A stretch of 64,000 nt of DNA from Lutibacter citreus (GTDB lineage: Bacteria > Bacteroidota > Bacteroidia > Flavobacteriales > Flavobacteriaceae), in NCBI RefSeq assembly GCF_003260195.1, contig NZ_QEIH01000005.1:186001-250000 (forward strand). The letters run 5' to 3'. The notes below the pieces were generated by a model. The model worked only from the letters and a program-made list of their open reading frames with translations, did no database searches and was not told the origin of the DNA. Positions 194-30,203 of this stretch are shown in pieces. Numbering within the stretch: position 1 is the stretch's first letter; each line of letters starts with the position of its first letter. The position numbers and the translations under genes were made by a program.

Positions 194-1591
194 ATGAGAA
201 CAAAAAGACTAATTTTATTTTTCGCATTAAGTTTCGTTTTTTCATCTGTGTTATTCGCGCAGAAGAAAACAAATATTGTATTCCTATTTGCAGATGATGC
301 AGGTTACCACGATTTTGGTTTCCAAGGAAGTAAAACATTTAAAACACCAAATTTAGACAAGTTAGCTACTGAAGGAGTTGTAATGAAGCAAGCCTATACA
401 ACTGCAGCTGTTTGTGGACCTTCAAGAGCAGGTTTGTTAACAGGAATGTACCAACAACGTTTTGGAATTGAAGAAAACAATGTTCCTGGTTATATGAGCC
501 ATTCTTCAAAATTAATGGGTGATGAAATGGGGTTGCCATTACATTTAAAAACCATTGCCGATTATTTAAAACCATTAGGTTATAAGTCGCAAATATTAGG
601 AAAATGGCATTTAGGAAACGCAGATAGATACCATCCTTTAAAAAGAGGATTTGATGAGTTTTATGGTTTTAGAGGAGGAGCAAGAAGTTTTTGGCCATTA
701 ACACAAACAGAAGCTGCTGAAAGACCTGAAAATAGATTGGAAATTGGGTATCAAAAATATGAAGAACCATCTAAATATTTAACAGATGCTATTGCGGATG
801 AAGCTTGTAACTTTATGGAGAGAAATAAAAAGAAACCATTTTTCATGTATGTTTCTTTTAATGCCGTTCACACCCCAATGCAAGCTACAAAAGAAGATTT
901 GGCTAAAGTAAAGGGTTTAACAGGGAAACGTAAAACATTGGCTGCTATGACAATTGCCTTAGATAGAGCTTGTGGTCAAATATTAGAAAAATTGAAAGAA
1001 TTAGGTTTAGAAGAAAACACACTTGTAGTGTTTTCAAATGATAATGGTGGTCCTGATGGTTCTATGACTTGTAATTACCCATTAAGTGGTTGTAAATCTA
1101 ATAACCTTGAGGGTGGAATTCGTGTTCCTTGTATACTAAAATTACCAAATGTAATTAAACCTGGAACAACTTATAATAAACCTGTAAGTATGTTAGATAT
1201 GTTACCAACATTTGTAAATGCAGGTGCTGGAGATGCGTCTAAAATTAAAAATATTGATGGAGTTGATTTAATACCTTACATCACTGGTGAAAATAAAGCG
1301 GCACCTCACGAAATGTTATTTTGGAAAAAAGAAAATAGAGGTATTATTCGTATGGGAGATTGGAAAATGTTGAGGTTTCCAGATAGACCTGCTGAATTAT
1401 ACAATATAGAAAAGGACCAAGAGGAGAATAACAACTTAGCCTATAAACATCCTGAAAAAGTAAAAGAAATGTTTACTCATTTATGGAATTGGGAATGTGA
1501 ATTAGAGCGTCCACTTTGGATGTTAAAACGTGTTTATGAAGAAAACGCAATGAAGCGTATGGACGATAAAAGAACTCCAGTTTTAGATTAA
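194..1591 (+). CDS. Secreted S1-family sulfatase
   Basis: A type I, formylglycine-dependent sulfatase that hydrolyses sulfate esters, here probably from algal sugars in the periplasm. A signal peptide occupies about residues 1-22 (cleavage near FAQ). The metal-binding aspartates are D34-D35. The maturation motif C74-G-P-S-R lies at 74-78, so C74 is the residue converted to formylglycine. A late SNDNGG motif supplies further calcium ligands. The length of 465 aa is normal for a compact S1 enzyme. It is separated from the downstream block by a strong terminator and about 500 bp of partly decayed DNA, so it may be its own transcript. Maturation needs a sulfatase-modifying enzyme, which is not encoded here. 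The family is certain; sulfate position and sugar cannot be read from the sequence. Confidence 0.93.
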   Translation: MRTKRLILFFALSFVFSSVLFAQKKTNIVFLFADDAGYHDFGFQGSKTFKTPNLDKLATEGVVMKQAYTTAAVCGPSRAGLLTGMYQQRFGIEENNVPGYMSHSSKLMGDEMGLPLHLKTIADYLKPLGYKSQILGKWHLGNADRYHPLKRGFDEFYGFRGGARSFWPLTQTEAAERPENRLEIGYQKYEEPSKYLTDAIADEACNFMERNKKKPFFMYVSFNAVHTPMQATKEDLAKVKGLTGKRKTLAAMTIALDRACGQILEKLKELGLEENTLVVFSNDNGGPDGSMTCNYPLSGCKSNNLEGGIRVPCILKLPNVIKPGTTYNKPVSMLDMLPTFVNAGAGDASKIKNIDGVDLIPYITGENKAAPHEMLFWKKENRGIIRMGDWKMLRFPDRPAELYNIEKDQEENNNLAYKHPEKVKEMFTHLWNWECELERPLWMLKRVYEENAMKRMDDKRTPVLD

Positions 1592-1620
1592 AAAATTAAG
1601 AAGAGAATACTTCTAATTAT

Positions 1621-1676
1621 AATGCATCCGGGATATTTCAATTATAAAAATTGAATATTTTGGATGCATTTTTATT
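1621..1676 (+). terminator. Strong hairpin terminator after the first sulfatase
   Basis: A long inverted repeat beginning AATGCATCC (1621) and ending GGATGCATT (1670) encloses an AT-rich stem, followed by TTTATT. It starts 29 bases after the stop codon at 1591 and should separate this gene from the rest of the block. Confidence 0.75.
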
Positions 1677-1858
1677 AGTTAATGGTTTTGAAATTGGAAG
1701 ATAAAGTAGTTTCTAACTTTTATAATACTCTCTTTTTTATTTAGAAATGATGGTGTTTAAACACTATACAAACAATATACAAATAACTGTTTTTAGAATA
1801 TATACGCATAAAAAAACATACGTTTTAGTTTTAGACACATATAGCTGTCCACTCAATT

Positions 1859-1866
1859 TAACTTTG
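1859..1866 (+). promoter_or_regulatory. Candidate Bacteroidetes -7 promoter element
   Basis: TAACTTTG matches the TAnnTTTG -7 consensus exactly and lies 38 bases before the ATG of the sulfatase stub. No clean TTTG -33 box is present at the usual spacing. It could drive the stub and the genes that follow. Confidence 0.3.
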
Positions 1867-1903
1867 TTTTAAATTGCATAAACAAATTGAAATAGGTTTT
1901 ATT

Positions 1904-2066
1904 ATGAAAATAAAAAATATAGCTTTAATTTTTTCAAAGCTATTATTAGTGAAAATAAATATTTCTATTGCTCAACAAATACAGCAACCAAATATATTTT
2001 GGGTTTCAAGTGAAGACAATTAGAAGAAGTTGTATTGGTTGTTATAGAAATACAATTTATAAATAG
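1904..2066 (+). pseudogene. 5' stub of a decayed S1 sulfatase
   Basis: An ATG at 1904 opens a 39-codon frame ending at TAG 2021-2023. It encodes a signal peptide ending in AQ, then QPNIFWVSSEDN, which is the typical first strand of an S1 sulfatase. In another frame, 2034-2066 encodes IGCYRNT and then stops. The sulfatases at 8408 and 18123 have N-F-R-T-L-G-C-Y-R at this place, so the stub looks like the same subfamily with a frameshift and a stop, and everything after about residue 50 lost. The stub ends 26 bases before the GH35-like gene. This reading comes from the sequence; the subfamily assignment is inference. Confidence 0.7.
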
Positions 2067-2092
2067 ACATCAATCAACTATATAAACATATT

Positions 2093-4615
2093 ATGAAAAA
2101 AATCATTCTTCTTTTAGGAATTACAATCTTATTTTATTCTTGTAAAACAGCTACTAATTCAAAAAAAGTTGAAAATATCATAACCTATGATACCCCATTA
2201 ACTTCAGATTTTTCTAAAGTTGAGATGAAGACACCTCCAAACATACCTAATATGTCTGGTGTTTCACCTAAAGGCGATAAAATTACAGTGAATAGTGAAT
2301 ATTTAACGTTAAATGATAAGCCTTGGATTCCTTCTTATGGTGAATTTCACTATCAACGTTACCCAGCTAATCAATGGGAAGATGCTCTTTTGAAGATGAA
2401 AGCTCAGGGTTTTGATGGTGTTTCGGCTTATGTTTTATGGATTATGCACGAAGAAATTGAAGGTGAATGGAATTTTTCTGGAAATAATGATTTAAGACGT
2501 TTTATTAAATTGTGTCAAAAACACGATCTTAAATTTTTTGCACGAATTGGTCCTTGGGTAAATGGAGAATGTAGAAATGGAGGTCACCCAGATTGGCTAG
2601 TATCTAGATTAGGAGATCCTAAAAATCCATTTGGGAACAGTGGTAGAGGAGGAAAATTACGTACAATGGATCCAGAATATTTAGCTTCGGTTGATATTTT
2701 ATACCAAAAGTTAGCAGAACAAATGGAGGGTTTGTATTGGAAAGATGGAGGTCCAATTTATGCTATTCAATTAGATAATGAGTTTTCGCATCACGTTTCA
2801 AAAGGAAGTCCTGCTTTAATGGACTGGGAAAAAGAAACGGCAATAAAATACGGAATGGATGTTCCATTATATTCTGTAACAGGATGGGCAGACGCTCCTT
2901 TCACACAAGACAACACCATTCCTTCATATGGTTCATATACCGACTATTTTTGGATTCCTGCAGATGCAAAACATGTAACTGAGGCATTTAGTTTTAGTAT
3001 TTATAGGGCCTCAAATGATGTTAATACTGAATTAAGTGATGGAGCCAAAGAAACTGAAGGTGTCCAAACTTCTTATAATTCAAATCCATATTTAACCTGT
3101 GAAACTGGAATTGGAATGGATATGGCATATCACAGAAGAACGAATCTTAATTATTTAGATAACGGAGCACTTTCACTAGTAGAGTTTGGAAGTGGAGCGA
3201 ATGGCATAGGATATTTTATGAATGTTGGAGGGAACAATCCTAAAGGAAAATTAACCTATATGAATCGTGATATTGAACAAGGAGCAAATGATAACGGTGT
3301 TATTAGCCGTGATTTTCAGGCTGCTATTGGGGAATTTGGACAAGTGCGTAAAAGTTTTCACGAATTTCCTGTTCAATTAAATTTTATGACAGATTTTGGG
3401 CAGTATGTAGCTCCTTGTAAAACATTTGTTCCTAGTGAGTTAGATGAACTGAAAGGACATAAAATTAGCGATACCAAAAAGCTTCAAAGAGCAATTAGAA
3501 CTGATGGTAAAACAGGATTTATTTTTGTGAATAACCATGTGAAATTAGACACGGCTTATCAATTTAACAATATTCAATTTGAAATAAAGTTAAAAAATGA
3601 AACATTGAAAATTCCAGAAAAAGCAATCAATATTCCTATTGACTCCTACTTTTATTGGCCTTTTAATTTAACACTTCAAGAAACTACTATAAAATATGCT
3701 TCAGCACAACCAGTACTTTCATTAAAAGAAAGTAATACCTATGTTTTCTTTGAAAATGAAGGAATTGACGCTGAATTTTTATTAGATAATACAAATCTTG
3801 AAGCTGTAACAGCTAACAATGCTAAAGTTTCAAAATTAAAAGAAACAATTAAAATTTCAATTACTGAGGCTGGATTGAATTGCTACTTTGATGTAAAACA
3901 AAAAAATGGAGAATTAATTCGTTTTATAGTTTTATCGCAAAAACAAGCAAAGCAGCTTTATAAAAATGAAGATAAACTATACTTGTCTAATGCAGAGGTG
4001 ATTACATTTAACAATGTGAATAATACCATTAAAGTGATAAGTGAGAATACTAATAATTCAGTTTGGGTATATTCTTCAAACAATATTGAAAATGTAACCA
4101 CTACAAAAGATGGCTTATTTGATAAAATTGAAGTAAATTTTGAAAAACAAGAAGTTCCAATTACCATTAAAGAAACTCAAAATGGTAAGAATTTGAGTTT
4201 TAAAAATCGTTCAAATAATCAGAAGAAAAACAACAAAATTGCACGTCCTTTAGATTCAGTTTGGCATAAAGGAACTGTTGTTGAATTTAGCTTTCCTAAA
4301 GGTATACCTTCAAACCTAAATGATGTTAGAGTTCTTGTTGATTATGAAGCAAGTGCTTTACGTTTTTACAAAAACGGAGAATTTAAATACGATAATTATT
4401 ATAACGGTAATGTATGGGATTTTAGCACTAAACATTTATTGTCTGATTATTCTTCTGATATGAAATTGGAATTAAAGTTCATTCCACTTCAACCTAATGA
4501 TGCAATTTATATTGATGGGGTTTATTGGCCAGAACTAAATAAAAATGAGAATGTTTTAAAAATTAATAGTATAAAAACAAAACCGATATATAATAAAAGT
4601 TTTAAATTAAAATAA
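2093..4615 (+). CDS. GH35-like beta-galactosidase family lipoprotein
   Basis: Probably a surface or periplasmic exo-glycosidase removing galactose-type residues. The lipobox ends at C17 (LFYSC). Residues about 65-390 form a TIM barrel with GH35 hallmarks: a GFDGVSAYVLW strand near 106-116, H119-E120, R151-IGPW with E159, and the QLDNE motif with E230 as likely acid/base. E337 (TCETG) is a candidate nucleophile. The remaining roughly 450 residues should be beta-sandwich modules. At 840 aa it is long for bacterial GH35, and the motifs are divergent (GPWVNGEC instead of the common GPYxCAEW), so specificity may differ from a plain beta-galactosidase. Five bases separate it from the next sulfatase, indicating co-transcription. 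The clan is fairly sure; the exact family is less so. Confidence 0.75.
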   Translation: MKKIILLLGITILFYSCKTATNSKKVENIITYDTPLTSDFSKVEMKTPPNIPNMSGVSPKGDKITVNSEYLTLNDKPWIPSYGEFHYQRYPANQWEDALLKMKAQGFDGVSAYVLWIMHEEIEGEWNFSGNNDLRRFIKLCQKHDLKFFARIGPWVNGECRNGGHPDWLVSRLGDPKNPFGNSGRGGKLRTMDPEYLASVDILYQKLAEQMEGLYWKDGGPIYAIQLDNEFSHHVSKGSPALMDWEKETAIKYGMDVPLYSVTGWADAPFTQDNTIPSYGSYTDYFWIPADAKHVTEAFSFSIYRASNDVNTELSDGAKETEGVQTSYNSNPYLTCETGIGMDMAYHRRTNLNYLDNGALSLVEFGSGANGIGYFMNVGGNNPKGKLTYMNRDIEQGANDNGVISRDFQAAIGEFGQVRKSFHEFPVQLNFMTDFGQYVAPCKTFVPSELDELKGHKISDTKKLQRAIRTDGKTGFIFVNNHVKLDTAYQFNNIQFEIKLKNETLKIPEKAINIPIDSYFYWPFNLTLQETTIKYASAQPVLSLKESNTYVFFENEGIDAEFLLDNTNLEAVTANNAKVSKLKETIKISITEAGLNCYFDVKQKNGELIRFIVLSQKQAKQLYKNEDKLYLSNAEVITFNNVNNTIKVISENTNNSVWVYSSNNIENVTTTKDGLFDKIEVNFEKQEVPITIKETQNGKNLSFKNRSNNQKKNNKIARPLDSVWHKGTVVEFSFPKGIPSNLNDVRVLVDYEASALRFYKNGEFKYDNYYNGNVWDFSTKHLLSDYSSDMKLELKFIPLQPNDAIYIDGVYWPELNKNENVLKINSIKTKPIYNKSFKLK

Positions 4616-4620
4616 TCAAA

Positions 4621-6474
4621 ATGAAAAAATTAAAGTATTTAATCTTAATTATTATAACTGTACTTATTTCAAGTAAATCTGTTCTAGCACAGCAAAAAAA
4701 ACAACCAAATGTACTTTGGGTTTTAACAGATGATCATCGTTATGATGCTGTTCGTTCATTCAATAAAATGTTAACAGGAAAAGAAGAAAGTGCATTAGGT
4801 TATGTAGAATCTCCAAATATTGACCGTTTAGCCAGTATGGGTACAACATTTGTAAATACCTATTGTCAGGCTCAAGGTTGTGCGCCTTCAAGAGCATCAA
4901 TGCACTATGGACGTTATCCTTTCCGCTCCGGAGTATATGAGTTTGAGTATCATAATAATAACACAGAAAATTCATATCCACATTTACCAGAACAGATGGA
5001 AAAATTGGGATATCAAACACTTCACATAGGAAAGTTAGGCGTAAGATTAAGAACAATTAAAAATGGTAAGGCAGTCTCTCCTAATATGTACCAAATAGAT
5101 ATTGATTCAAAAACACTTGCAAATGAAGGTTTTGCAGAATGGGGTAAGATATCTTTATTGAAAGAAATTGATGGTCAGAAATTGGTAAAACCTTTTAAAA
5201 ATATTAAGTACTTAAAAACTGAAGATGGCAAATACTATTTTTTCAGTAAAGAGTTGGAAAAACAAAACCCTCAATTTGCGGGTATGGCAAAAGAAATTTA
5301 TGATAAGTTAGATTTGTTGCGTAAGCACACTAACAAAAAACCAGAAACTGAATTTAATGATGGTATATTGGGAGGTATAAGTCCAAGACCAGCAGGTAAA
5401 ACACGTGATGGATATTATACTACTTCTTTTAAAGAATTTTTAACTAGCGAAAACAAGGAATTTAAATTAGGTAAATTATCATTCAATGGTGTAGATACTT
5501 CTAAGCCTTTGTTTTGTCATATTGGTTACGATTTTCCTCATACTCCAGTACTTCCACCATTAGAATATCGTGAGCGTTTTCAAAAACACACCTACAAATT
5601 ACCTGAATTAAGTAAGGAAGAATGGGCTAAAATGCCAAAGCAACTTAAAAAGCAGGTAAACAATGCTTATTCTAATGATTTTACAGATGAGCAAAAACAA
5701 AAAATGATTCAAGATTATTATGCTTTTTGTGCATATGGAGATGATTTAGTTGGACAATCTGTAGATGCTTTTATTGATTACAGTAAAAAGAAAAAACAAC
5801 CTTGGTTAGTTGTTTATGTGAATGGAGATCACGGTTGGAAATTGAATGAACATGGTGCATATTCAAAATTTACACCTTGGGACATTGATGCTCATAACCC
5901 AATAGTAGTAGTTTCTTCGGATAAAAATAAATTCCCAGAAGGTAAAGTGGTAAAGGATTATACTGAATTTATGGACATTGCTCCTACAATTATTGCTGCA
6001 GCAGGAGCCAATATTGAAACTGAAAAATTTAATTATTTAGACGGAATGAACTTAGCGAATGTAGTTTCAGGAAAAGCAGTAAAAAGAGATTATGTAGTTG
6101 GTGAAAGTCATGCCGTTACAGGCCCAAGAGCATTTATAAGAACTAAAGACTATGCATTTTCTATGCAAACAAGACCCAATAAAAAACGAGGAGAAAATAT
6201 GAACTGGGCATTAAATACTTCTTATAAAGATTTAGATCCTGCATTGTATGATATGGAAAAAGACCCACATGAGATTAACAATTTGGCTTTCAATAAAAAG
6301 TATGAAAAAGTAGCAAAAGCTATGAAGGAAAAGTTGATAAATATTGTTTTAGGAGATAATAGAGCAGAAATAAATTGGGGTAAAGGAATGAAAGCTATTA
6401 ATACCAAGGTGTATCATAGTAATTTTGCTCCTGGAGCACACGATTATAAGTTAAAATTAGAAAAAATTAAGTAA
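4621..6474 (+). CDS. Secreted S1-family sulfatase (tandem copy 1)
   Basis: A large sulfatase of 617 aa with a signal peptide to about residue 24 (VLAQ). D37-D38 (TDDHR) are metal ligands and C87-A-P-S-R is the formylglycine motif. A late NGDHGW motif near residue 400 carries the other metal ligands. An insertion of roughly 120 residues follows the active-site helix, including the [19 protein letters not shown] stretch. It is clearly paralogous to the next gene over its full length, sharing [29 protein letters not shown] and the C-terminal [12 protein letters not shown]. Only one base separates the two. The closest relationship is to that neighbour, not to the other five sulfatases here. Confidence 0.92.
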
Positions 6475-6475
6475 A

Positions 6476-8308
6476 ATGAAAATTAAAATATTTTTTGCAT
6501 TATTTCTTTTAGCAACAACAATTAAATTTGGTTTTGCTCAAACACAACAACCAAACATTCTTTGGGTGTTAACAGATGATTATCGATATGATGCGGTTCG
6601 TTCATTCAATAAAATGCTTACAGGTAATGAAATGAGTGAATTAGGTTATGTTGAATCTCCAAATATTGATCGTTTGGCCAGTATGGGAACAACATTTATA
6701 AATACCTATTGTCAGGCTCAAGGTTGCGCACCTTCTCGTGCGTCAATGCATATGGGAAGATATCCATTTCGTTCTGGTGTTTATGAATTTGAATATTTCA
6801 ATAATACAGCAAAACATTTTAAACCAACGTTACCAGAGCAATTAGCAGATTTAGGTTACCAAACATTACGTATTGGAAAATTAGGTGTTCGAATAAAAAC
6901 TGTTAAAAATGGTAAAGTAAGACCTTATAATATTTATCAAAACAATCTTGATTTTAAGGCGTTAAGAAAGGATGGATTTACAGGTTGGGGTAAAGATTGG
7001 TTTTATGAGTTAGATGGTAAAAAGTTAGCGAAGCCTATTAAAAATATGGAGTATTTTGTAACTCAAGAAGGTAAATTTGAATATATTTCAAAAGAGCTGG
7101 AAGAGATGAATCCTAAATATGCAGGAACAGCTGCAAAGGCCGTAAAAAAATATGATTTATTAAGACATTATAATAAAAAGAAAGGAAAACTAACACCATT
7201 TACATCTGGAATTTTAGGAGGCGTAAGTTCAAGAAAAGCGGGAGAAACTAGAGATGGTTACTACGCTTCAATTTTTGAAGATTATTTAAAAAATGAACAA
7301 AATAAATTTACAGTTGGTTCACAAACAATAAACGGAATTGATGCTTCAAAACCACAATTCTTTTATATAGGTTTCGATTTCCCTCACACGCCAGTATTGC
7401 CACCAGCAAGTTATAGAGAGCGTTTTCAAAAGCATTCTTATAAAGTTCCTGAATTTGATGAAAAGGAATTAAAAACAATGGCAAAGCAAATGAAAAAGCA
7501 AGTTGAAGCTGGTTATACCGATCATTTTAAGGATTCAGATAAACAAAAAATGATTCAAGATTATTTTGCATTTTGTGCTTATGGAGATGGTTTAATTGGA
7601 CAATCTGTTGATGCTTTTATTGAGTACAATAAAAAAGAAAACAAACCATGGATGATTGTTTATGTAAATGGTGACCACGGCTGGAAATTAAACGATCACG
7701 GTTCGGTATCTAAATTTTCACCTTGGGATATTGATGCTCACAATCCAATAGTAGTAGTTTCTTCAGATAAAAAGAAATTTCCTGCAGGAAAAGTTGTTAA
7801 AGATTATGCCGAATTTGTAGATATTGCTCCAACAATTCTTTCTGCAGCTGGTGCTAATATTAAATCTGATAAATTTAAGTATTTAGATGGTTTAGATATG
7901 GCAAAAGTAGTATCCAAAAAAGCACCTAAAAGAGATTATGTTGTTGGTGAAAGTCATGCAGTTACTGGTCCAAGAGCATTTATTAGAACTAAAGAATATG
8001 TGTTTTCAATGCAAACTCGTCCAACCAAAAATAGGGGTGAAGATATGAATTGGGCGTTAAACGCAACTTATAAAGAGTTAGACCCAGCACTTTATAATAT
8101 GAAAAAGGATCCGCATGAGATTAATAATTTAGCTTTCAATAAAAAATATCAAAAAGTAGCAGAGCAGATGAAAGAGAAGTTAGTCAATATTGTACTTGGC
8201 GATAATAGAATTGAAGTTGGATGGGGTAAAAAAGCGGATGGAACAAAAATTTACAGAAGTAATTTCGCTCCTGGAGCACACGATTATAAATTAAAAATTA
8301 AAAAATAA
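6476..8308 (+). CDS. Secreted S1-family sulfatase (tandem copy 2)
   Basis: A 610-aa paralogue of the preceding gene, starting one base after its stop codon. Signal peptide to about residue 21 (GFAQ), metal-binding D34-D35 (TDDYR), formylglycine motif C84-A-P-S-R. It keeps the same insertion and the same C-terminal [12 protein letters not shown]. The copies differ most in the insertion (about residues 150-240), where substrate-facing loops are expected, so they may act on different sulfate positions or sugar contexts. The pair points to a tandem gene duplication followed by divergence. A hairpin repeat follows the stop codon. Confidence 0.92.
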
Positions 8309-21052: not shown

Positions 21053-22603
21053 ATGAAAAGTATTACGAGAATTTATTTAGTAATCGCAATTTTAATAGTT
21101 AGTTTTTCTGCTGTTGCACAAGTTAGCGTATCTAACATTTTTAGTAGCCATATGGTGTTGCAAAGAAATCAGCAAAATCCAATTTGGGGGACAGCAAGTG
21201 TTGGTGAAAAAGTAACCATAACTATTGATACCCAAAAACATAAAACAATTACAGACAAAAACGGTAATTGGAAAGTGAAATTGAACCCATTAAAAGTTGG
21301 AGGTCCATATAAATTGACAGTTAAAGGGAAGAATAAAATTACTTTTGATGATATATTGGTTGGTGAAGTGTGGATTTGTACAGGTCAATCTAATATGCAA
21401 TGGAGTGTAATAAATTCTAATCATTCAGATTTAGAAATAGCATCAGCCAATTATCCAAATATACGCTTGTTTAGTGTTCCTTTAACTGGGAATCCTGAAA
21501 TTCAAACTAAAATTGCAGATACTTCTTGGGTTGCGTGTACACCAAAAAACATTCCTGAATTTTCTGCGGCAGGTTATTTCTTCGGAAGAAAATTACATCA
21601 AACTTTAGGAGTACCTATTGGATTAATTAATGCTTCTTGGGGAGCATCATCATTAGAAACTTGGATTTCTCGTGAAGCATTAGAAGCTTCAGGGAAGCAC
21701 AATGAATTATTAGAAGATTGGGATATAGCAGCTAGTGAATTCACCGATGAAAAATTAGTTGAAGTAACTAAAGCTTATGAAGAATGGGAAGCCGCAGGGA
21801 AACCTGGAGCAAAAATGCGTCCACCTCGTGATATTAGAATTGCTCAAAACAGACCTGCAAACGCTTTTAATGGAGTTATAAATCCAATTGTTGGATTTGG
21901 AATAAAAGGTGCAATATGGTGTCAAGGAGAAAGTAATTTAGGAAGAGGTTACCAATATAGAAGTTTATTTCCTTTACTTATAAATTCTTGGAGAACGTTA
22001 TGGAATCAAGGGGATTTCCCATTTTATTGGATTCAGTTAGCTAGTATGAAAGAACCAGACAAAGAACCAACTTCAAGTAGTTGGGCAGAGTTAAGAGAAT
22101 CACAAACCAAAACACTTTCATTACCAAATACAGGGGAAGTTGTTACTATGGATTTAGGAGAAGGTCGTGATATTCATTATAGAAATAAACAACCAGTTGG
22201 AAACCGCTTAGCACGTTTGGCACTAACAAAAGAGTATGGTTATAAATTTGCAAGTGAAAGCCCTAGATATGAGTCTATTAAAATTAAAGGCAATACGATT
22301 ATCATTACTTTTAATCATATTGATGAAGGTTTGTATGCTGCTGACTTTGAAACTGTAAAAGGTTTTGCAATTGCAGGATTTGATAAAAAGTTTGTTTGGG
22401 CAAAAGCAAAAATTATAGATAAAAACAAAATTGAAATTTCATCAGAAAAAATAATAAATCCAATTGCTGTAAGATATGCTTGGTCTAACAATCCTAAAGC
22501 AAATTTATTTGATAGAAATGGATTACCAGTAACAGGTTTTAGAACAGATAAGTGGAAATTACAATCTCAAGATAGAAAAAAAGCATATAGACGTTATAAA
22601 TAA
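21053..22603 (+). CDS. Sialate O-acetylesterase-like (SASA) carbohydrate esterase (second copy)
   Basis: A 516-aa exported esterase paralogous to the gene at 16694. Signal peptide to about residue 23 (VAQ), HMVLQR at 33-38, catalytic S113 in TGQSNM, and AIWCQGESN as second block. It carries an insertion (about residues 205-260, with a KPGAKMRPPRD stretch) that the first copy lacks. The C-terminus is very basic (RKKAYRRYK). The phosphoesterase frame follows immediately after the stop codon. Confidence 0.88.
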   Translation: MKSITRIYLVIAILIVSFSAVAQVSVSNIFSSHMVLQRNQQNPIWGTASVGEKVTITIDTQKHKTITDKNGNWKVKLNPLKVGGPYKLTVKGKNKITFDDILVGEVWICTGQSNMQWSVINSNHSDLEIASANYPNIRLFSVPLTGNPEIQTKIADTSWVACTPKNIPEFSAAGYFFGRKLHQTLGVPIGLINASWGASSLETWISREALEASGKHNELLEDWDIAASEFTDEKLVEVTKAYEEWEAAGKPGAKMRPPRDIRIAQNRPANAFNGVINPIVGFGIKGAIWCQGESNLGRGYQYRSLFPLLINSWRTLWNQGDFPFYWIQLASMKEPDKEPTSSSWAELRESQTKTLSLPNTGEVVTMDLGEGRDIHYRNKQPVGNRLARLALTKEYGYKFASESPRYESIKIKGNTIIITFNHIDEGLYAADFETVKGFAIAGFDKKFVWAKAKIIDKNKIEISSEKIINPIAVRYAWSNNPKANLFDRNGLPVTGFRTDKWKLQSQDRKKAYRRYK

Positions 22604-22609
22604 TCAATT

Positions 22610-22726
22610 ATAAAAAAAACACTAACCATTATTTTAGTTTTAGCTATAAACCTTTTTTATGCTCAAAAAAAAGATGTTTTAGCTATTTCAGAAAAAAAGG
22701 CAGCAAAAAATAAAATTTGTTTTGCG
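22610..22726 (+). other. In-frame signal peptide region without ATG, upstream of the phosphoesterase
   Basis: Reading from 22610 in the frame of the phosphoesterase gives an open run of 39 codons: ATA, then KKTLTIILVLAINLFYAQ and KKD. This is a textbook signal peptide with the same AQ cleavage site as its neighbours. The codon where ATG is expected is ATA at 22610 (ATT at 22607 precedes it). Either a start mutation has occurred, a rare AUU/AUA start is used, or translation continues from the upstream esterase, whose stop is only 6 bases away. Confidence 0.6.
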
Positions 22727-24403
22727 TTGTACACCGTAAACGATAATACGATGAAAATGACAGCTCAGTTTTATCCTATTAAAAATTATGATCCATTTAG
22801 AGCAACACTTCAAATTAAAAAGAATTTAAAATGGGAAAATGTTCAAGAGGCTGAAATTAATTATCCAGGGTATACTGCTCATTTCAGAATTGAGGGTTGG
22901 GATGATTCTAAAGAAACGGAGTACAGAGTTGTATATAAAAAGAATCAATTTTACACAGGGATAATTCGTCAAAATCCTATAAATAAGGATGAATTGGTAA
23001 TGGCAGCTTTTTCGTGTTGGTCTATTTATGAAAGACACGGAGGTCAAGAACCAGAAACTGATATTGTAGATAATTTAAAAAAGTTAAAACCAGATGTATT
23101 GTTTTTTGCAGGAGATCAGGTTTATGACCATAGTGAACATTACAAGTATTGGTTAAAATTTGGAGAGTCGTTTGGTGAGATTATTAGTAATACACCTACA
23201 ATTACAATTCCAGATGATCATGATGTTGGTCACGGAAATCTTTGGGGAGATGGTGGTAGAAAATCAGAAACTAGAGATGGTAATTATGGCGGTTATTATA
23301 TGCCAGTTTCTTATCTTAAAGAAATTGAACGTGCACAAACTTGGCATTTACCAGACCCTTATGATCCAACACCAATAGAACAGGGAATAGGAGTTTATTA
23401 TACCAATTTAACTTGGGGTGGGGTAAGTTTTGCTATTGTTGAAGATAGAAAATTTAAGTCTGGGCCAAAAAGAGTTTTAGAAGGTAAACGATATAAGGAT
23501 ACGCATAATATGGATGTTTTAGAAGCAACCTTATTAGGAAAACGTCAACTTGATTTTTTAGAAGATTGGACAACAAATTGGAAAGGTGCTGAAATGAAAG
23601 CGGTGTTATCTCAAACTATTTTTACAAATTTAGCTACACATTCACCAACAATAGAGAAAAAACAAAAATACAGTGTAGATTCTAATGGATGGCCACAAGC
23701 AGGAAGAAATAAAGCCTTAAATGTTATTAGAAAAAGTTTTTCGTGTATGATTGCAGGAGACCAACATTTAGGTTCAGTAGTACATCACGGTATTGAAGAT
23801 TGGAACAATGCAGGTTATTCATTTGCTGTGCCAGCTGCGGCTAATTATTGGATGCGTTGGTGGAACCCTGATAAACCTGGTAAAAACCATATAAAAGGGA
23901 CACCAAATTATACGGGTGAGTATAAGGACGCTTTTCATAATAAGATTACAGTACACGCAGTTGCAAATCCTACACACAAAGATAATAATCCTAAAAATGA
24001 TTTGTTAAAAGGAAGAGCTGCAGGTTACGGAATTATTAAATTTAACAAACCAAAACGTGCCATTACTTTTGAATGTTGGGAGCGAAATGTAGATATGTTT
24101 GCTGAAGGAAGTAAACCTTATAATGGATGGCCAATAACTTTTTCTCAATTGGATAACTTCAAGTTAAAGGATGCATATGAATTACCAACATTGAAAATTT
24201 CAGAAGTAAATCAAGTTGTTACCGTTAGAAACGATTACACCAAAGAGGTTATTTCTTCATTAAGAATTAATGGAAATGAATATAAGCCTAACGTAATGTA
24301 TCCGGGTTCTTACACTATTGAAGTTGGAGAAGGTAAAAACTTAAAACGCTTTTTTGAAGTTGAAGCAGTAAAATATAATAAGAAGAAGTTAATAATAAAT
24401 TAG
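22727..24403 (+). CDS. PhoD-like metallophosphoesterase, signal peptide displaced
   Basis: A 558-aa enzyme from the first ATG. A beta-sandwich N-domain (about 1-88) precedes a calcineurin-like metallophosphatase core: AAFSCWS near 93-99, AGDQVYDH at 128-135, PDDHD at 162-166 and a later AGDQHLG. This is the PhoD/alkaline phosphatase D superfamily, acting on phosphomonoesters or diesters. In this locus it may act on a substituted sugar, or have another role. From the ATG the protein has no export signal, but the 39 upstream codons supply one in frame, so the natural protein was probably about 597 aa and exported. The C-terminal 80 residues form a further beta domain. Confidence 0.8.
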   Translation: MYTVNDNTMKMTAQFYPIKNYDPFRATLQIKKNLKWENVQEAEINYPGYTAHFRIEGWDDSKETEYRVVYKKNQFYTGIIRQNPINKDELVMAAFSCWSIYERHGGQEPETDIVDNLKKLKPDVLFFAGDQVYDHSEHYKYWLKFGESFGEIISNTPTITIPDDHDVGHGNLWGDGGRKSETRDGNYGGYYMPVSYLKEIERAQTWHLPDPYDPTPIEQGIGVYYTNLTWGGVSFAIVEDRKFKSGPKRVLEGKRYKDTHNMDVLEATLLGKRQLDFLEDWTTNWKGAEMKAVLSQTIFTNLATHSPTIEKKQKYSVDSNGWPQAGRNKALNVIRKSFSCMIAGDQHLGSVVHHGIEDWNNAGYSFAVPAAANYWMRWWNPDKPGKNHIKGTPNYTGEYKDAFHNKITVHAVANPTHKDNNPKNDLLKGRAAGYGIIKFNKPKRAITFECWERNVDMFAEGSKPYNGWPITFSQLDNFKLKDAYELPTLKISEVNQVVTVRNDYTKEVISSLRINGNEYKPNVMYPGSYTIEVGEGKNLKRFFEVEAVKYNKKKLIIN

Positions 24404-24440
24404 GTCATAATATTATTTTAGGTATAATATATAAATTCGT

Positions 24441-25094
24441 AAAAATGTCACATTCTTTTCTATAATAAATGATGGTTTGTTTTATGGTACTGAAGTTGGA
24501 AATCAGGGTTATGGTACTTGTACCCACGTTTGGGGATATGTTCAGGCTATGTGTCAAAATGGTTATGAATATGCAGCATCTTCGTTAATGATGTGGCAAG
24601 ATATGCCATATCATTCATTGTCTCATATTTGGTATATGCACAATAATAGATATATAGGATCTAAAAGAAATCCTTGGTGTATAATTGAATGGGGTTTACA
24701 TTATTCAAGATCAATGGCAAGTTATGGTCATTTTATTGAAGCAAGTGGATTTGAATACCATGGTCCTAAAGGTTATATGGCATTTTCACCTAAAATTACT
24801 CCTTGGAATTTCAAAGCTCCATTTACCGCTGCAGAAGGTTGGGGTACTTTTGAGCAAATTCAGAAGAAAGGAAAACAGCGTAATAACATTCAGGTTAATT
24901 ATGGAAAATTAAGTTTAAAAACTTGTGCTTTTGATGCAGTGAATGAGAGAAAAATAACAAAACTGAATGTATCTATTAATGGTGGAGAAGCGAAAAATGT
25001 TTCATTCATTCAAAATAAAAATCGACTAACTATAGTGTTTAAAGATAAAATAATAATCCCAGAAGAATCATTATTAATGGTTGAATTAAAATAA
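24441..25094 (+). pseudogene. GH116-like remnant, 5'-truncated and internally deleted
   Basis: The open frame after the stop at 24438-24440 has no ATG; the first usable start is TTG at 24477. Its start (NDGLFYGTEVGNQGYGTCTH) matches residues about 410-430 of the next gene. From QNGYEYAASS on it matches that gene from about residue 740 to the C-terminus: both share RNPW, HYSR, SGFEYxGPKG, ITPxNFK and AEGWG. So about 400 N-terminal residues and about 300 central residues, including the region of acid/base D654, are missing. It is a decayed tandem paralogue, ending 7 bases before the intact gene. Confidence 0.82.
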
Positions 25095-25101
25095 ATAAAT
25101 T

Positions 25102-27849
25102 ATGAAAAATAAAATTGGTTTTAGTATTTCAACTTTTTATAAAACTGCATTCTTAATTTTGTTTGTATCTATTCAATGTTATTGTCAAGAAAAAAAAGGA
25201 GAACCTTATATTCCATTAGATAAAAATCTTAGCGAAGAGTATGTTCAATCTTTAACAAAAAGAGGAGAGCGTAAGGTATATTCAGGAAAAGAACTAAAAT
25301 ATATAGGGATGCCTTGTGGTGGTATTGGAGCTGGACAGGTTGAAATTACAGGGCAGGGAGTATTAAATTTCACAGAGTCTATTTATAATAAAATGCAACA
25401 GCCTAATGGAGGGCATGGTCTTTCTACGGGATATCAATATTTGAATCCAACAATACCTGTTTCCAAAATTGAAAATGGATTTGAAATAACTATCAAAGCT
25501 AAAAACAAAAAAGCTATTCATAACAAGTTAAATAGTGATGATTTTGATGACATTCAATTTATTGGTGAATATCCTATGGCTCAAATTTATTATCAAAAAA
25601 AGCAGTCAAAACTTCCTATATCTATACAAGGAAAGGTTTTTTCTCCTTTTATACCTCTTTCAGTAAGAAAATCAACCAATCCTATTGTAGTGTTTCATTA
25701 TTCTTTGAAGAATACTAGCAATACCAATCAAGAAGTAACTTTAAGCAACAATCTTAAGAATATAAAATTTAATAGTGAAGGAAACATAGAATATGTAAAT
25801 AAAGCATTTAAATATAAGGAGTTAAGTGGAGTTTCTATGGGTATGGTGACAACAGACACTACTATGGCTGTATTAAAACATCCTCAGTTAGGTGGATTTT
25901 CAATAGCTGTTTTAGATAAGAATGCTAATTTATTTTTAAATGAATCCAATATAAAAGCAAAGGATGGAGTTTCAGAAAAAACATTAGAACCTATAAAAGG
26001 GAGCATAAGTTCCACAATTAATTTAAAACCTGGCCAAACAAAAGAATTAACGTTTATGGTTTCGTGGTATTTTCCTAATTATTATGAAAATGGTAGGCGC
26101 TATAAAATTGCTAAAAGTTTAGCTCCTGGTTGGGTTGGACACGTTTATAATAATTGGTATAGTAATTCTTTTGATGTAGTGAAATATGTTGGCATGAATT
26201 TTAATGAATTATATACAGAAACAGAAGAATTTAGAAATACATTTCACGATTCTTCATTGCCATATTGGTTATTAAATAGAGTTTCTATGCCTCTTTCTAC
26301 ACTTGCAGCAGGTAATATTGCAATATGGAAGAATGGTAGGTTGTTTGGTTATGAAGGTGTTGGTTTTTGTCAAGGTACTTGTGGGCACGTTTATAATTTT
26401 GTAACAACTTTTGCATATTTATTTCCAGAATTAGAAAGGTCAGTTCGTTTAAAACAAGATTTTAGTAGTGAAGGAGCATACAGTGCTTATAGTAAAAGTG
26501 GACGAATTAATTTTAGAGGGTACGGAGCGAATCATCCGGAATATAAACATAGTTACGCTTCTGATGCACAGAGCGGATATATATTAAAAGCCTACCGCGA
26601 ACATTTAATGTCTTCGGATAATACATTTTTAGATGCTGTTTGGGAGCAGGTAAAAGGTGCGATAGGTTATCATATTTATAAAGATGGGGCCGAAATAGGA
26701 CTTGAACCTAATGGTGTTTTAGAAGGAATACAAACTTTTTGGGACCCAATGTGGTATGGGCCAAACCCTTATAATAATACCTTGTATTTAGCAGCTTTAA
26801 GAGCATCTGAGGAAATGGCAAAAATTAAGGGAGAATATAAATTAGCAAAAAGTTATAGAAATTTATTTGAAAAAGGCCAAGCTTATATGAATGATAAATT
26901 ATGGAATGGAGAATTCTATTTTCATTTATATCCAAATGGTTTTAAAGCAAAACAAGCTTCAAATGGTTTTATTCCAATAGAGAACGCAGAGATCAATGCA
27001 CAAAATTTCATTGAAAATTTTAATAATGGTGGGGAGCTATATTATGAAGGTGGTGCTTGCGATGCACAGCAGTTATTCGGTCAAAACTGGGCAAATCAAT
27101 TAGGTTTAGGATATATTCTTCCAAAAGAAAATTGTAGTAAGGCTGTAAAAAGCATATTTAAGTATAATTGGACACCAGATATTTCAACAGTTTATAATTA
27201 TCAGAAACCACATGCCCGAACTTTAGCTACTAAAGGTGAAGCAGCTATGGTAAATGGGAGTTGGCCCCATAAAAAAGCACAATCATTTGAAAATAACCAT
27301 GATAAATTTAATATTTGGTCTGGTTTAGAATATGAGGCTGCTTGTGATATGATTAATGAAGGTGATGTTAAGAATGGGCTTATTGTTATCCGCTCTATTC
27401 ATGATAGATATGATGGGGTTAAAAGGAATCCTTGGAACGAAGTAGAAGGGTCGGATCATTATTCTAGAGCTATGCAATCTTGGAATGTGCTTCGTTCTTT
27501 AAGTGGTTTTGAATATAATGGTCCAAAAGGTAAATTGGGGTATAATCCACGTATTACACCAGAAAATTTTAAAAGTTTTTTCTCTTCAGCTGAAGGTTGG
27601 GGAAGTATTATTCAAAAAAGGAATGGAGTATCCCAAACCAATAATATTGAAATTAAATATGGAAATTTGGATTTGAAAGAACTTTATCTAAATACGGGTG
27701 ATAATACAATTATTAAAGAGATAGTTATTAATTTGGATGGTAGAAGTCAAGAATTTAAATTTATCCAAGTTGAAAATAAAATTTCAATATCTTTTAATAA
27801 AAGAATAAAATTAGAAAAGAATCAAAAGTTGAACATAACCATTAATTAA
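25102..27849 (+). CDS. GH116-family glycoside hydrolase
   Basis: A 915-aa exported enzyme related to GBA2-type beta-glucosidases. Signal peptide to about residue 29 (YCQ). The N-terminal beta-sandwich domain starts with GMPCGGIGAGQVEITGQG (69-86), the GH116 signature region. An alpha/alpha-barrel domain covers about 380-800. D654 in GGACDAQ aligns with the family's acid/base aspartate (compare SDQ-x-x-GQW in GBA2), followed by GQNWANQLGLG. I could not place the nucleophile with confidence. A short beta domain closes the protein. GH116 members cleave beta-glucosides or beta-xylosides; in this locus another sugar is possible. Confidence 0.78.
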   Translation: MKNKIGFSISTFYKTAFLILFVSIQCYCQEKKGEPYIPLDKNLSEEYVQSLTKRGERKVYSGKELKYIGMPCGGIGAGQVEITGQGVLNFTESIYNKMQQPNGGHGLSTGYQYLNPTIPVSKIENGFEITIKAKNKKAIHNKLNSDDFDDIQFIGEYPMAQIYYQKKQSKLPISIQGKVFSPFIPLSVRKSTNPIVVFHYSLKNTSNTNQEVTLSNNLKNIKFNSEGNIEYVNKAFKYKELSGVSMGMVTTDTTMAVLKHPQLGGFSIAVLDKNANLFLNESNIKAKDGVSEKTLEPIKGSISSTINLKPGQTKELTFMVSWYFPNYYENGRRYKIAKSLAPGWVGHVYNNWYSNSFDVVKYVGMNFNELYTETEEFRNTFHDSSLPYWLLNRVSMPLSTLAAGNIAIWKNGRLFGYEGVGFCQGTCGHVYNFVTTFAYLFPELERSVRLKQDFSSEGAYSAYSKSGRINFRGYGANHPEYKHSYASDAQSGYILKAYREHLMSSDNTFLDAVWEQVKGAIGYHIYKDGAEIGLEPNGVLEGIQTFWDPMWYGPNPYNNTLYLAALRASEEMAKIKGEYKLAKSYRNLFEKGQAYMNDKLWNGEFYFHLYPNGFKAKQASNGFIPIENAEINAQNFIENFNNGGELYYEGGACDAQQLFGQNWANQLGLGYILPKENCSKAVKSIFKYNWTPDISTVYNYQKPHARTLATKGEAAMVNGSWPHKKAQSFENNHDKFNIWSGLEYEAACDMINEGDVKNGLIVIRSIHDRYDGVKRNPWNEVEGSDHYSRAMQSWNVLRSLSGFEYNGPKGKLGYNPRITPENFKSFFSSAEGWGSIIQKRNGVSQTNNIEIKYGNLDLKELYLNTGDNTIIKEIVINLDGRSQEFKFIQVENKISISFNKRIKLEKNQKLNITIN

Positions 27850-27890
27850 GAATAAAACTGATGAGAGAAATATTATTAAAAGTATTAAGT

Positions 27891-28883
27891 ATGAAAGCAA
27901 AAATATTACTGTTATTTGTATTGTCTGTTCTATTAGTTCAATGTAAACATAAGACAGCTATAAAAGTATTAATTCCAAAGCAGGAAAATAAATTTGTGGA
28001 GGTGTACCAACCAAAGGGAGATAATTTTTTTGGTCCAGATACAAAGTTTCTCAAAGAAGGACAATGGTATGAAAGATGGGTGCCAAATGATCATACTTTT
28101 GTGAAAGCAGAAGATGGTAAATGGCATATATTTGGAATAACGCATCCGTATGTTGATCCAAAACTTGGAAATGTTCATGATGGTGAATATGCTTCTTTTC
28201 ATGCAATATCCTCTAGTACAAATTTTAAAGAAACATTAAAAGAAGACCATTATTTAGACTTGCCCAAGATTCTTACGCCTAAACAACGCCCTGGAGAAAT
28301 TACGGCAAATCACGCTCCATATATTGTAAAAAAAGATGGTTTATATAATATGGTTTATGGTCATAGTCCAATACGATTAGCAACTTCACCAGATTTATAT
28401 AATTGGACTCCTAAAGGAAATTTATTTGAAGAAGAAAAAGGAGCAAGAGATCCAAATTTGTTATTTCATAAAGGAACTTATTACATCACTTATTGTTCAG
28501 AAAAGTGTGTAAGAATGAGAACTTCTAAAGATTTAATAAATTGGAGTGAAGCAAAAACGATTCTTGTAACTAATGAATTCGACCCAGAATCACCTTCAAT
28601 AATTTTTTATAATGATTCTTTTTATCTTTTTGTTTGTGCCTGGGAAAAAGGATCCTGGGATGGAATAATATTACAGGGTGCTTATACTCATAAAGCATAC
28701 GTTTATCTATCAGATGATTTAAATGATTTTGGGACGGATAATGAAAAAGAAATTACCATATTAAATGCACATGCTCCTGAAATTTTTAAAGATGAAAATG
28801 GGCAATGGTATATTTCAAGTGTAGTATATCCAAATGAAGGTGTAAATGTAGATAAATTGGAATGGGTTGAAAAAATAAAATAA
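27891..28883 (+). CDS. GH43-like five-bladed propeller lipoprotein
   Basis: A 330-aa lipoprotein when started at the ATG at 27891; an ATG at 27861 in the same frame would add ten residues before the signal peptide and spoil it. The lipobox LVQC ends at C18. The fold is a five-bladed propeller of the GH43/GH32 clan type: D67 (PNDHTF), D187 (GARDPNL) and E233 (DPESPS) occupy the places of base, pKa modulator and acid. Blade motifs such as YYITY and FYLFV recur. It could be an arabinofuranosidase-like, galactosidase-like or anhydrogalactosidase-like exo-enzyme. It lies between the GH116 and GH117 genes. Confidence 0.72.
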   Translation: MKAKILLLFVLSVLLVQCKHKTAIKVLIPKQENKFVEVYQPKGDNFFGPDTKFLKEGQWYERWVPNDHTFVKAEDGKWHIFGITHPYVDPKLGNVHDGEYASFHAISSSTNFKETLKEDHYLDLPKILTPKQRPGEITANHAPYIVKKDGLYNMVYGHSPIRLATSPDLYNWTPKGNLFEEEKGARDPNLLFHKGTYYITYCSEKCVRMRTSKDLINWSEAKTILVTNEFDPESPSIIFYNDSFYLFVCAWEKGSWDGIILQGAYTHKAYVYLSDDLNDFGTDNEKEITILNAHAPEIFKDENGQWYISSVVYPNEGVNVDKLEWVEKIK

Positions 28884-28925
28884 TATTTATAATTCTAAAA
28901 ATAAAACGGTTAAGTTCAATTAAAT

Positions 28926-30203
28926 ATGAAAATAATTAAAAAATACTTATTTCTTTTAGGCTTTTTAACAACGCTAATGGCTGTTGGGCAAGTAAAAACA
29001 ACAAATGCTTTTCCTTATAATTTCCCTGAAGAAAAACCAAATATGCCGTTAAGTGCAGCAATGCAAAGAAACTATGATAATTATATGGGTATTAGGCCAG
29101 AAACTAATGAATTATATACTCAATTTAAATACACTAAACTTAAAGGTTTTGATTATAATGGGGGTGACGGAACCATATCACGTCGTGACCCTTCAAAAGT
29201 GATTTTTGCGAATGGTAAATATTACATTTGGTATACACACCGTAAAACTCCTGTTCCTCCTATAGGTCTTCATAGAGCCAAAGAGAGTAGTGAAACAATT
29301 CCTTCAGCAGATTGGGATTTATCTGATATTTATTATGCTACATCTGAAGATGGGTTTACTTGGAAAGAACAAGGAGTTGCCGTTCCTCGTCCTCCAAAAC
29401 CTCATGTTGGGCATCGTTCAGTTACAACAACTGATATTTTAGTATTTAAAGGTAAATATTATTTGTATTATCAAGGTTTTACAGAAGCTCCAGGTTTAAA
29501 TGGAGGAGATTATTGTCCTGTTGCAGTTTCATATGCAAATTCTCCTGATGGACCTTGGACTGCAACAAATAAAATAGTTATTCCTAACGGGAAACCTGGA
29601 GAGTGGGATCAACATTCTATACACGATCCATTTCCAATGGTTCATAATGGAAAAATTTATTTGTATTATAAATCTGATTTTGGAAAAAGCAAAACTACCG
29701 GAATGGTACGTATGCATGGGTTGGCGATTGCAGATGATCCATTAGGACCTTTTGAAAAACACCCTTTAAATCCAATTTTAAATTCAGGACATGAAACTAC
29801 ATTGTTCCCATTTAAGGAAGGTGTTGCGGCTTTTGCTATTAGAGATGGCAATGAAAGTAATACTATTCAATACGCAAAGGATTGGGTAAATTTTGAAATA
29901 GCATCAACTGTTGAAATGATGCCAGATGCAGCAGGGCCATTTATTCCTGATGCATTTACAAATACAAAAAAAGGAAGAGGAATTACTTGGGGAATATCAC
30001 ACTTTGCAAGACCTCATGGAGATTGGAATAGAAATCATATTATACTGCTACGTTTCGATTGCGATTTAAGTTTGGATGTTGAAGATAAAGCAATGAAAAA
30101 GCATCATATTATCCGTGAGTTTGAGACTATATTAAAACATGGTTTGTCTGGAAATCAAAAAAAGAGAATAGCTAAAGAAAATGAAAAATTAATGAGACAA
30201 TAA
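28926..30203 (+). CDS. GH117-family glycoside hydrolase (anhydro-galactosidase type)
   Basis: A 425-aa five-bladed propeller enzyme. GH117 founders release 3,6-anhydro-L-galactose from the non-reducing end of agar oligosaccharides. The family's domain-swapping N-terminal motif SxAxxR is present as SAAMQR at 43-48. Catalytic candidates are D88 (SRRDPS, base), D234 (IHDPFP) and H289-E290 (SGHETT); their spacing closely follows known members. Signal peptide to about residue 22 (VGQ). GH117 contains several clades, not all agar-active, so the sugar released is unsure. It is the last gene of the block and is followed by hairpins. Confidence 0.88.
   Translation: MKIIKKYLFLLGFLTTLMAVGQVKTTNAFPYNFPEEKPNMPLSAAMQRNYDNYMGIRPETNELYTQFKYTKLKGFDYNGGDGTISRRDPSKVIFANGKYYIWYTHRKTPVPPIGLHRAKESSETIPSADWDLSDIYYATSEDGFTWKEQGVAVPRPPKPHVGHRSVTTTDILVFKGKYYLYYQGFTEAPGLNGGDYCPVAVSYANSPDGPWTATNKIVIPNGKPGEWDQHSIHDPFPMVHNGKIYLYYKSDFGKSKTTGMVRMHGLAIADDPLGPFEKHPLNPILNSGHETTLFPFKEGVAAFAIRDGNESNTIQYAKDWVNFEIASTVEMMPDAAGPFIPDAFTNTKKGRGITWGISHFARPHGDWNRNHIILLRFDCDLSLDVEDKAMKKHHIIREFETILKHGLSGNQKKRIAKENEKLMRQ

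Follow-up and report, generated by a model that had tools for sequence, protein, structure and literature searches.

Described systems for sulfated galactans

Loci for agar and porphyran, such as those of Zobellia, Aquimarina, Paraglaciecola and gut Bacteroides, contain a GH16 agarase or porphyranase, GH117, GH2 and S1 sulfatases. The carrageenan cluster of Zobellia galactanivorans has no SusC/SusD of its own and is served by a remote pair, according to the passages of PMC5698469 that deal with it, and PMC5943477 allows systems that lack this pair to count as PUL-like. The sulfatase-rich block of Lutibacter citreus described here has the gene families of the agar and porphyran loci, but adds to them eleven sulfatases, several esterases, GH35, GH3, GH43, GH116 and three GH74-like proteins, while the GH86 of the host sits elsewhere in the genome, outside the block. 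With the carrageenan regulon it shares the absence of a local SusC/SusD and, putatively, an S1_19-type sulfatase, but it has neither GH127 (by Pfam) nor a carrageenase-like GH16. We regard it as likely that the block is an accessory locus that breaks down a heavily decorated galactan of the agar type: a sulfated agaran or porphyran, perhaps a xylogalactan such as coralline red algae have.

Extent and setting of the locus

The window is a stretch of 64,000 nucleotides (contig positions 186001–250000). An initial annotation of its region 194–30203 had described a dense block on one strand with mostly short gaps, and this description holds: all 18 open reading frames (ORFs) lie on the + strand, with a largest intergenic gap of 501 bases (1592–2092) and all others of 123 bases or fewer. 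The locus is cut by the window edge, and this region is the second part of a one-strand block of approximately 53 kb and 30 ORFs (contig positions 162792–216203), whose true start lies 23 kb further upstream. This upstream part contributes four sulfatases, a pair each of Asp-box and GH3 proteins, and single GH43, apiosidase-like, GH16 and GH2 proteins, the GH2 stopping at about window position 47. The whole block thus holds 11 S1 sulfatases, GH2, GH35, two GH3, two GH43-like proteins, GH117, GH116, an AgaC-like GH16, esterases, a PhoD-like protein and three Asp-box proteins. For window positions 194–30203, Pfam gives seven sulfatases, one GH35, one GH116 and one PhoD, and places two further proteins in its GH43 family, the second of which is GH117 by comparison with solved structures. 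It also gives a BNR/Asp-box protein and four esterases, two of SASA type and two weak ones of GDSL type. This agrees with the seven intact S1 sulfatases, four putative esterases, one phosphoesterase and set of glycosidase-like and Asp-box proteins annotated initially.

Sulfatase matches number 136 genome-wide, with a few genes counted twice, and a dense run of sulfatase genes is therefore nothing unusual for this host. The window has no tRNA, and Rfam recognizes a single element in it, a cobalamin riboswitch (42392–42578). A plasmid-borne origin was considered and rejected, the closest plasmid matches being distant (Persicobacter, 61% for one sulfatase and 52% for the Asp-box protein).

A canonical Bacteroidota PUL has a SusC/SusD pair within the locus. 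None had been seen in the block, and an upstream search for susC/susD and endo-enzymes had been proposed; it yielded the AgaC-like GH16 and no SusC/SusD. No ORF of at least 150 amino acids in contig positions 146011–250000 matched the host's own SusC/SusD-sized ORFs, the queries being 18 SusC- or SusD-sized ORFs from eight loci of the same genome. On the contig, the nearest Plug match is at 259447 and the sole SusD-like_3 match at 262410, which places the nearest pair approximately 43–46 kb downstream of the block. With the same 18 queries from one genome and the same ORF size, SusC/SusD-like genes were found in four of 15 related stretches, 13 of which were selected for holding an Asp-box gene. 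By this comparison, the missing local pair is a variant among related loci.

Sulfatases

S1 sulfatases are recognized by a Sulfatase domain together with a C/S-x-P/A-S/T-R active site, and all 11 sulfatases of the block (seven in the window, four upstream) have the domain and the motif C-x-P-S/T-R. The first (194–1591; PF00884 E 2e-53; CGPSR) is 36% identical to the S1_19-like gene at 19607 and has counterparts at 87–89% in two Lutibacter stretches. Two large sulfatases follow at 4621–6474 (PF00884 E 5e-29; CAPSR) and 6476–8308 (PF00884; CAPSR), the second a 67% paralogue of the first; the first has no close solved relative (best E 6e-27) and has relatives at 62–86% in 10 of the 15 related stretches. 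The sulfatase at 11189–12820 (PF00884 E 9e-29; CSPSR) is likewise without a close solved relative (best E 3e-20), with relatives in nine of the 15. Those at 8408–9877 (PF00884 E 2e-52; CTPSR) and 18123–19592 (PF00884 E 8e-55; CSPSR) complete the set, together with the one at 19607–21037 (PF00884 E 3e-61; CAPSR), which lies near solved S1_19/carrageenan sulfatases (6bia, E 6e-101; 9hh3, named ‘family S1-19’, E 1e-96).

This last enzyme raises the question of carrageenan or a carrageenan/agar hybrid galactan, in which the S1_19-like sulfatase would desulfate galactose and GH2 and GH35 would release it. The sulfatase is indeed closest to those acting on iota/kappa-carrageenan, an observation counted against agaran, and the carrageenan cluster of Zobellia likewise has no local SusC/SusD in the account of PMC5698469. 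The GH16 of the block, however, matches ZgAgaC at 1e-64 and kappa-carrageenase at just 8e-4, Pfam gives no GH127 domain, and both GH16s tested from the related Wenyingzhuangia aestuarii locus are porphyranase-like (porphyranase B 3juu, E 7e-112; 4awd, E 1e-51). A carrageenan locus would be marked by a kappa-carrageenase-type GH16 or GH127, and the block has neither, in a check that covered these two families. We consider carrageenan unlikely.

Glycosidases and esterases

The AgaC-like GH16 upstream of the window has the beta-agarase ZgAgaC (6hy3) as its best solved match (E 1.4e-64), followed by porphyranase A at 2e-18, and none of the 15 related stretches has a relative of it at 50%. The GH117 at 28926–30203 is assigned to its family by a close, full-length match to a solved GH117 (4u6d, E 3e-190, spanning 4–418), with 4u6b at E 1e-155 and anhydro-L-galactosidases at 1e-58; we take 4u6d and 4u6b to be the Zobellia GH117s Zg3615 and Zg3597. 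Most solved relatives of the GH35 beta-galactosidase-like protein (2093–4615; PF01301 E 3e-44) carry the name beta-galactosidase (best E 1e-24), and the protein has counterparts at 86–87% in only two of the 15 stretches, both from Lutibacter. A GH43-like protein at 27861–28883 (PF04616 E 1e-13) has weak NCBIfam matches and relatives at 48–77%, and the upstream GH43 resembles beta-xylosidases/arabinofuranosidases. The GH116 protein (25102–27849; PF04685 E 2e-37, PF12215 E 1e-29) has no 50% relative in the 15 stretches; it is preceded by a GH116-like gene remnant (24477–25094) that is 37% identical to the intact protein over 176 amino acids and gives no match in a Pfam scan.

Two SASA-family carbohydrate esterases are encoded at 16694–18118 (PF03629 E 5e-19; relatives in seven of 15 stretches) and 21053–22603 (PF03629 E 9e-15). 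The putative GDSL esterases at 9892–11142 (PF13472 E 2.7e-6) and 15431–16642 (PF13472 E 1.2e-5) both fall under the curated cut-off and are 42% identical; the former has a 50% relative in none of the 15 stretches, while the latter has relatives at 73–80% in three. Comparisons of the GH35, GH116, apiosidase-like and GDSL proteins yielded no sugar-specific match. The PhoD-like phosphatase/phosphoesterase (22727–24403; PF09423 E 4e-12) has a frame that continues upstream through a signal-peptide-like stretch, with no ATG, GTG or TTG before 22727; seven relatives of 592–609 amino acids also have this stretch.

The two GH3 proteins, GH43, apiosidase-like protein and GH116 are, to our knowledge, not typical of agar loci. 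They speak for a different sulfated target, such as a brown- or green-algal polysaccharide that contains fucose, xylose or arabinose, on which GH117-like enzymes would have a different specificity. Relatives of block genes occur in Tamlana fucoidanivorans and Cellulophaga fucicola and, in the passages of PMC9296495 on these genes, agaC and the GH117 of a putative fucose-polysaccharide locus of Zobellia are induced by brown algae, which was also counted against agaran. Against such a glycan stand the lack of GH29 and GH105 domains by Pfam and the agaran-type GH16 and GH86 genes within or adjoining related genes, and we judge it quite unlikely. Ulvan and fucoidan loci were set aside on the same absence of GH29 and GH105, which covers Pfam-modelled families only.

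Related loci

The synteny comparison called for initially places 20 and 15 block genes in conserved order, at 65–92% identity, in two Lutibacter genomes. Parts of the block recur reshuffled in Wenyingzhuangia, Flavicella, Tamlana, Maribacter, Zobellia and others, in stretches where many ORFs were classed ‘other’ and nine of those were given to Pfam. The Lutibacter 4-1427 copy includes a GH95, which was counted in favour of agaran. Neither GH16 nor GH117 has a 50% relative in the two Lutibacter sister stretches, and the shared core is therefore without a recognized agar endo-enzyme. Of 78 GH117-derived loci, only 30 have a further gene of the block nearby (at 50% or above) and six have an Asp-box gene, low counts that were held against agaran; the co-occurrence set of 23 named genomes is biased, since it was hand-picked from these loci partly after results were seen.

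The block might also be an aggregate whose enzyme genes serve several different substrates and do not form a single pathway, in a sulfatase-gathering genome. The genome-wide abundance of sulfatases fits this, as do the lack of 50% relatives of GH116, GH117 and one GDSL protein in the sister stretches, and the GH116 remnant and odd PhoD start, which indicate turnover. The conserved order in two sister genomes and the recurrence of much of the gene set in other genera argue the other way, making an aggregate very unlikely.

Asp-box proteins

The Asp-box protein at 12839–15400 (PF15902, PF02012) has 12 Asp-box-like repeats. Its predicted model (mean pLDDT 79.9) retrieves GH74 structures at Foldseek ranks 1–24 (E 5e-31 to 2e-22), with the next fold at 1e-15, and GH74 also gives the top matches in a profile search. 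The clade is thus predicted to have the GH74 tandem-propeller fold, with TM-scores of 0.56–0.62, rmsd of 6.5–8.4 and identity of 13–16%. GH74 enzymes have two catalytic Asp residues, whose sites were placed by eye from a profile alignment. The first (D71) is retained in 21 of 22 aligned sequences, while the presumed second (455), for which the site mapping is weak, is Asp in 11 of 22, so one catalytic Asp is apparently kept and the other not. The block proteins thereby resemble GH74 xyloglucanases in their predicted tandem propellers and first-site Asp, but differ in their low identity and sulfatase-rich setting.

In a sample of the class, one of the 394 other genomes contained the clade, with at most two candidates scored per genome. 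A paralogue in the same genome directly precedes a GH86 ORF in a SusC/SusD locus on another contig (C30:256873–274278), and the GH86-type Porphyrn_cat_1 has three matches in the host genome and none in 14 control genomes. We propose tentatively, as a possibility about which we are doubtful, that the Asp-box proteins form a new clade of glycoside hydrolases that has the GH74 scaffold and cuts the sulfated-agaran backbone. They would then be the core endo-enzymes of this type of locus, since both Lutibacter sister loci have three Asp-box proteins apiece and no GH16 recognized by BLAST. A full-text search found no paper on Asp-box/BNR-repeat proteins paired with sulfatases and polysaccharides; the clade is the most novel part of the locus, an unstudied double-propeller group that may take part in cutting the polysaccharide.

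Substrate and proposed pathway

The initial view that the block matches no well-known agar, carrageenan, ulvan or fucoidan locus was too strong, because agaran markers are present: the AgaC-like GH16, GH117, the porphyranase-like GH16s of a related locus and the GH86 beside the Asp-box paralogue. An agar or porphyran locus has a GH16 or GH86 agarase or porphyranase, and the AgaC-like GH16 upstream of the window is such a gene. On these markers, the substrate class is probably agaran. By Pfam, GH29, GH105 and GH127 are absent from the intact block ORFs, all of which are assigned to other families; for marker families that Pfam may not model, such as GH82 and ulvan lyases, absence is by exclusion only. 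A little-studied sulfated, acylated algal glycan had been suggested. A sulfated, esterified glycan is supported, and ‘little-studied’ stands, since a full-text literature search found, among the entries listed, no characterized locus with the gene set of the block. PMC9504466 describes an agaran that is both xylosylated and sulfated; together with the upstream GH43, which resembles beta-xylosidases/arabinofuranosidases, this counts for an agaran that is perhaps xylosylated.

In the pathway that we infer for this agaran, from substrate, enzyme activities and export to the order of steps and the transporter, exported endo-enzymes would cut the galactan, namely the AgaC-like GH16 and possibly the GH74-like tandem propellers. 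Esterases and S1 sulfatases, one of them putatively S1_19-type, would uncover the chain, while GH43 and GH3 would strip xylose-type side sugars. GH117 would then remove anhydro-L-galactose-type units, GH2 and GH35 would release beta-galactose from the non-reducing end, and import would proceed through a SusC/SusD pair encoded elsewhere.

The kind of locus is already known, and the Asp-box double-propeller group is its unstudied part. The analysis assigns a recurrent, apparently undescribed sulfatase-rich locus to the probable agaran loci and brings forward a candidate new endo-enzyme clade. If true, this would help explain how complex sulfated, xylosylated red-algal galactans are opened, and would provide new enzymes for analysing them.

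Gene content and extent of the block

The host genome comprises 5.11 Mb in 35 contigs, and the window covers C31:186001-250000. Positions 194-30203 of the window are filled by 18 ORFs, all on the + strand, and Pfam assigns to them seven sulfatases, a GH35, a GH116, two GH43-family proteins (the second is a GH117 by comparison with solved structures), one Asp-box protein (12839-15400), a PhoD and four esterases, of which two are SASA proteins and two weak GDSL matches. The gene count of the initial annotation is thus borne out by ORF calls and Pfam. The ORF at 24477-25094 is a shortened GH116-like remnant beside the intact gene and indicates turnover of genes at that end of the block. The PhoD-like gene (22604-24403) differs from seven relatives in that its signal-peptide-like stretch, although in frame, lacks an ATG, GTG or TTG start; the cause may be an error in sequencing, decay of the gene or an uncommon start codon.

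The block extends upstream beyond the window edge, spanning approximately 162792-216203 of the window's contig, C31, with 30 ORFs. The upstream addition (stretches L001 and L002) consists of 12 + strand genes: four for sulfatases, two each for Asp-box and GH3 proteins, and single genes for an apiosidase-like protein, a GH43, a GH16 and a GH2, the last of which reaches its end just inside the window. At the head of the block lies a divergent protein of 417 aa that matches Trans_reg_C below the threshold; it may be a regulator of the block, since a 68% relative holds the corresponding place in Lutibacter sp. 4-1427. The motif C-x-P-S/T-R is present in all 11 block sulfatases. Across the genome, sulfatase matches number 136; the 276 kb stretch C30:250353-526840 accounts for 40, and further dense groups are found on contigs C2, C32, C34 and C35.

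To the right of the block, a domain scan covering ORFs up to 45140 identifies a histidine kinase with a PAS domain and a radical SAM protein, as well as a threonine/serine exporter pair followed by cobalamin biosynthesis genes. The exporter and cobalamin genes occupy 36802-45140 together with a cobalamin riboswitch (42392-42578, 98.3 bits), an ordinary arrangement.

Conservation and distribution

A block gene was counted as conserved where its best hit reached 50% identity and 70% coverage. The synteny comparison proposed in the initial annotation reveals sister loci in two Lutibacter genomes, with 20 distinct block genes in the same order in the uncultured Lutibacter sp. 4-1427 and 15 in Lutibacter oricola (65-92% identity). 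The GH2 orthologue is found at 80% in 2 of 37 other genomes of the genus, which marks an accessory locus. Just upstream of the sister locus in Lutibacter sp. 4-1427 (L134, C5:290886-302474) is a one-strand series of seven ORFs of much the same size (428-512 aa). The L. oricola locus encodes a beta-helix protein of 952 aa that carries a type IX secretion tail (L140:5995-8853), and Lutibacter sp. 4-1427 has an equal-length ORF at the matching place; the window block showed no protein of this kind.

In reshuffled relatives the numbers of distinct block genes are: Wenyingzhuangia aestuarii 15, Wenyingzhuangia heitensis 13, Flavicella 11, Tamlana 10, Ochrovirga 9, Saccharicrinis and Maribacter vaceletii 8 each, Labilibaculum 6, Zobellia barbeyronii 5 and Cellulophaga fucicola 3. 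The Asp-box gene is the sole block gene in a Reichenbachiella stretch and in one of two stretches from genome G289, the other holding two. Across 15 related stretches, relatives of the large paralogous S1 sulfatases starting at 4621 and 6476 occur in 10, of the S1 sulfatase at 11189 in nine, of the apiosidase-like protein in nine, of GH43, SASA and PhoD in seven each and of GH117 in six; relatives of GH116, the weak GDSL at 9892 and the AgaC-like GH16 occur in none of the 15. Among 78 GH117-derived loci (flanks up to 10 kb), another block gene is present at 50% or more in 30 and the Asp-box gene in six.

Asp-box proteins

The block contains three Asp-box proteins, mutually 52-63% alike, each with 12-13 Asp-box-like repeats. 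A structure model built from nine sequences (pLDDT 79.9, pTM 0.75) has GH74 structures as its 24 best matches (E 5e-31 to 2e-22, TM-score 0.56-0.62, rmsd 6.5-8.4), followed by other propellers at 1e-15. A profile search again places GH74 on top (E 6e-21), with alignments that slip between repeats. From these slipping alignments, a single weak anchor (profile W48 on ClGH74a W12) maps W42, Y52, H59, P60 and D71 by eye to the GH74 N-terminal site. In an alignment of 22 sequences (19 relatives and the three own copies), D71 is kept in 21, D472, D473 and E512 in all and E475 in 21, while position 455, the candidate second GH74 Asp, is Asp in 11. These proteins, an uncharacterised GH74-like clade, are the most novel part of the block.

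The family is found at E 1e-120 in 1 of 394 other genomes of the class; of 23 hand-picked, named genomes that carry a GH117, 18 have it. G289 was found without GH117 selection; one of its copies adjoins a sulfatase 66% like the block's S1_19-like sulfatase (19607-21037), and the other adjoins a GH2-like gene but no sulfatase relative. The Reichenbachiella copy, which stands alone, weakens the link. A 1092-aa host paralogue (56%) lies in a separate SusC/SusD locus (C30:256873-274278, L180/L181), where a GH2-like gene is on one side of it and, on the other, an ORF that matches Porphyrn_cat_1 (GH86-type).

SusC/SusD

The initial annotation had seen no SusC/SusD within the window, and the absence extends over C31:146011-250000 when searched with 18 of the genome's own queries. 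The genome as a whole has 20 SusD-like_3 and 52 Plug matches. SusC- or SusD-like ORFs occur in 4 of the 15 related stretches (Ochrovirga, M. vaceletii, C. fucicola and Z. barbeyronii, the last a cut SusC at the stretch edge) and in none of the other 11, so their absence is a variant among related loci. The Zobellia carrageenan cluster, as described in PMC5698469, resembles the block in likewise lacking SusC/SusD locally.

Substrate

Upstream endo-enzymes had also been proposed as a check, and the upstream part of the block contains a GH16 whose closest match is the beta-agarase ZgAgaC. ZgAgaC is reported to be active on agarose and complex agars (PMC6950322), and a relative, Aq1840, is described in PMC10163077. 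The W. aestuarii locus has two porphyranase-like GH16s. The GH117 matches the Zobellia structures 4u6d and 4u6b, which we take to be Zg3615 and Zg3597. The solved-structure comparison took in 3 of the 11 block sulfatases; one is S1_19-like and two are without a close solved relative. The upstream GH43 is similar to beta-xylosidase/arabinofuranosidases, a GH95 is present in the Lutibacter sp. 4-1427 locus, and sulfated agarans bearing xylose side chains are described from a coralline alga in PMC9504466. Taken together, the GH16, the porphyranase-like GH16s, GH117, sulfatases, GH43, GH95 and xylosylated agarans favour a decorated agaran as substrate, while carrageenan and brown-algal glycans remain rival targets. 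The block is real and conserved in part; truncated by the window edge and free of SusC/SusD, it is a variant of what is most probably a locus for agaran-type degradation.
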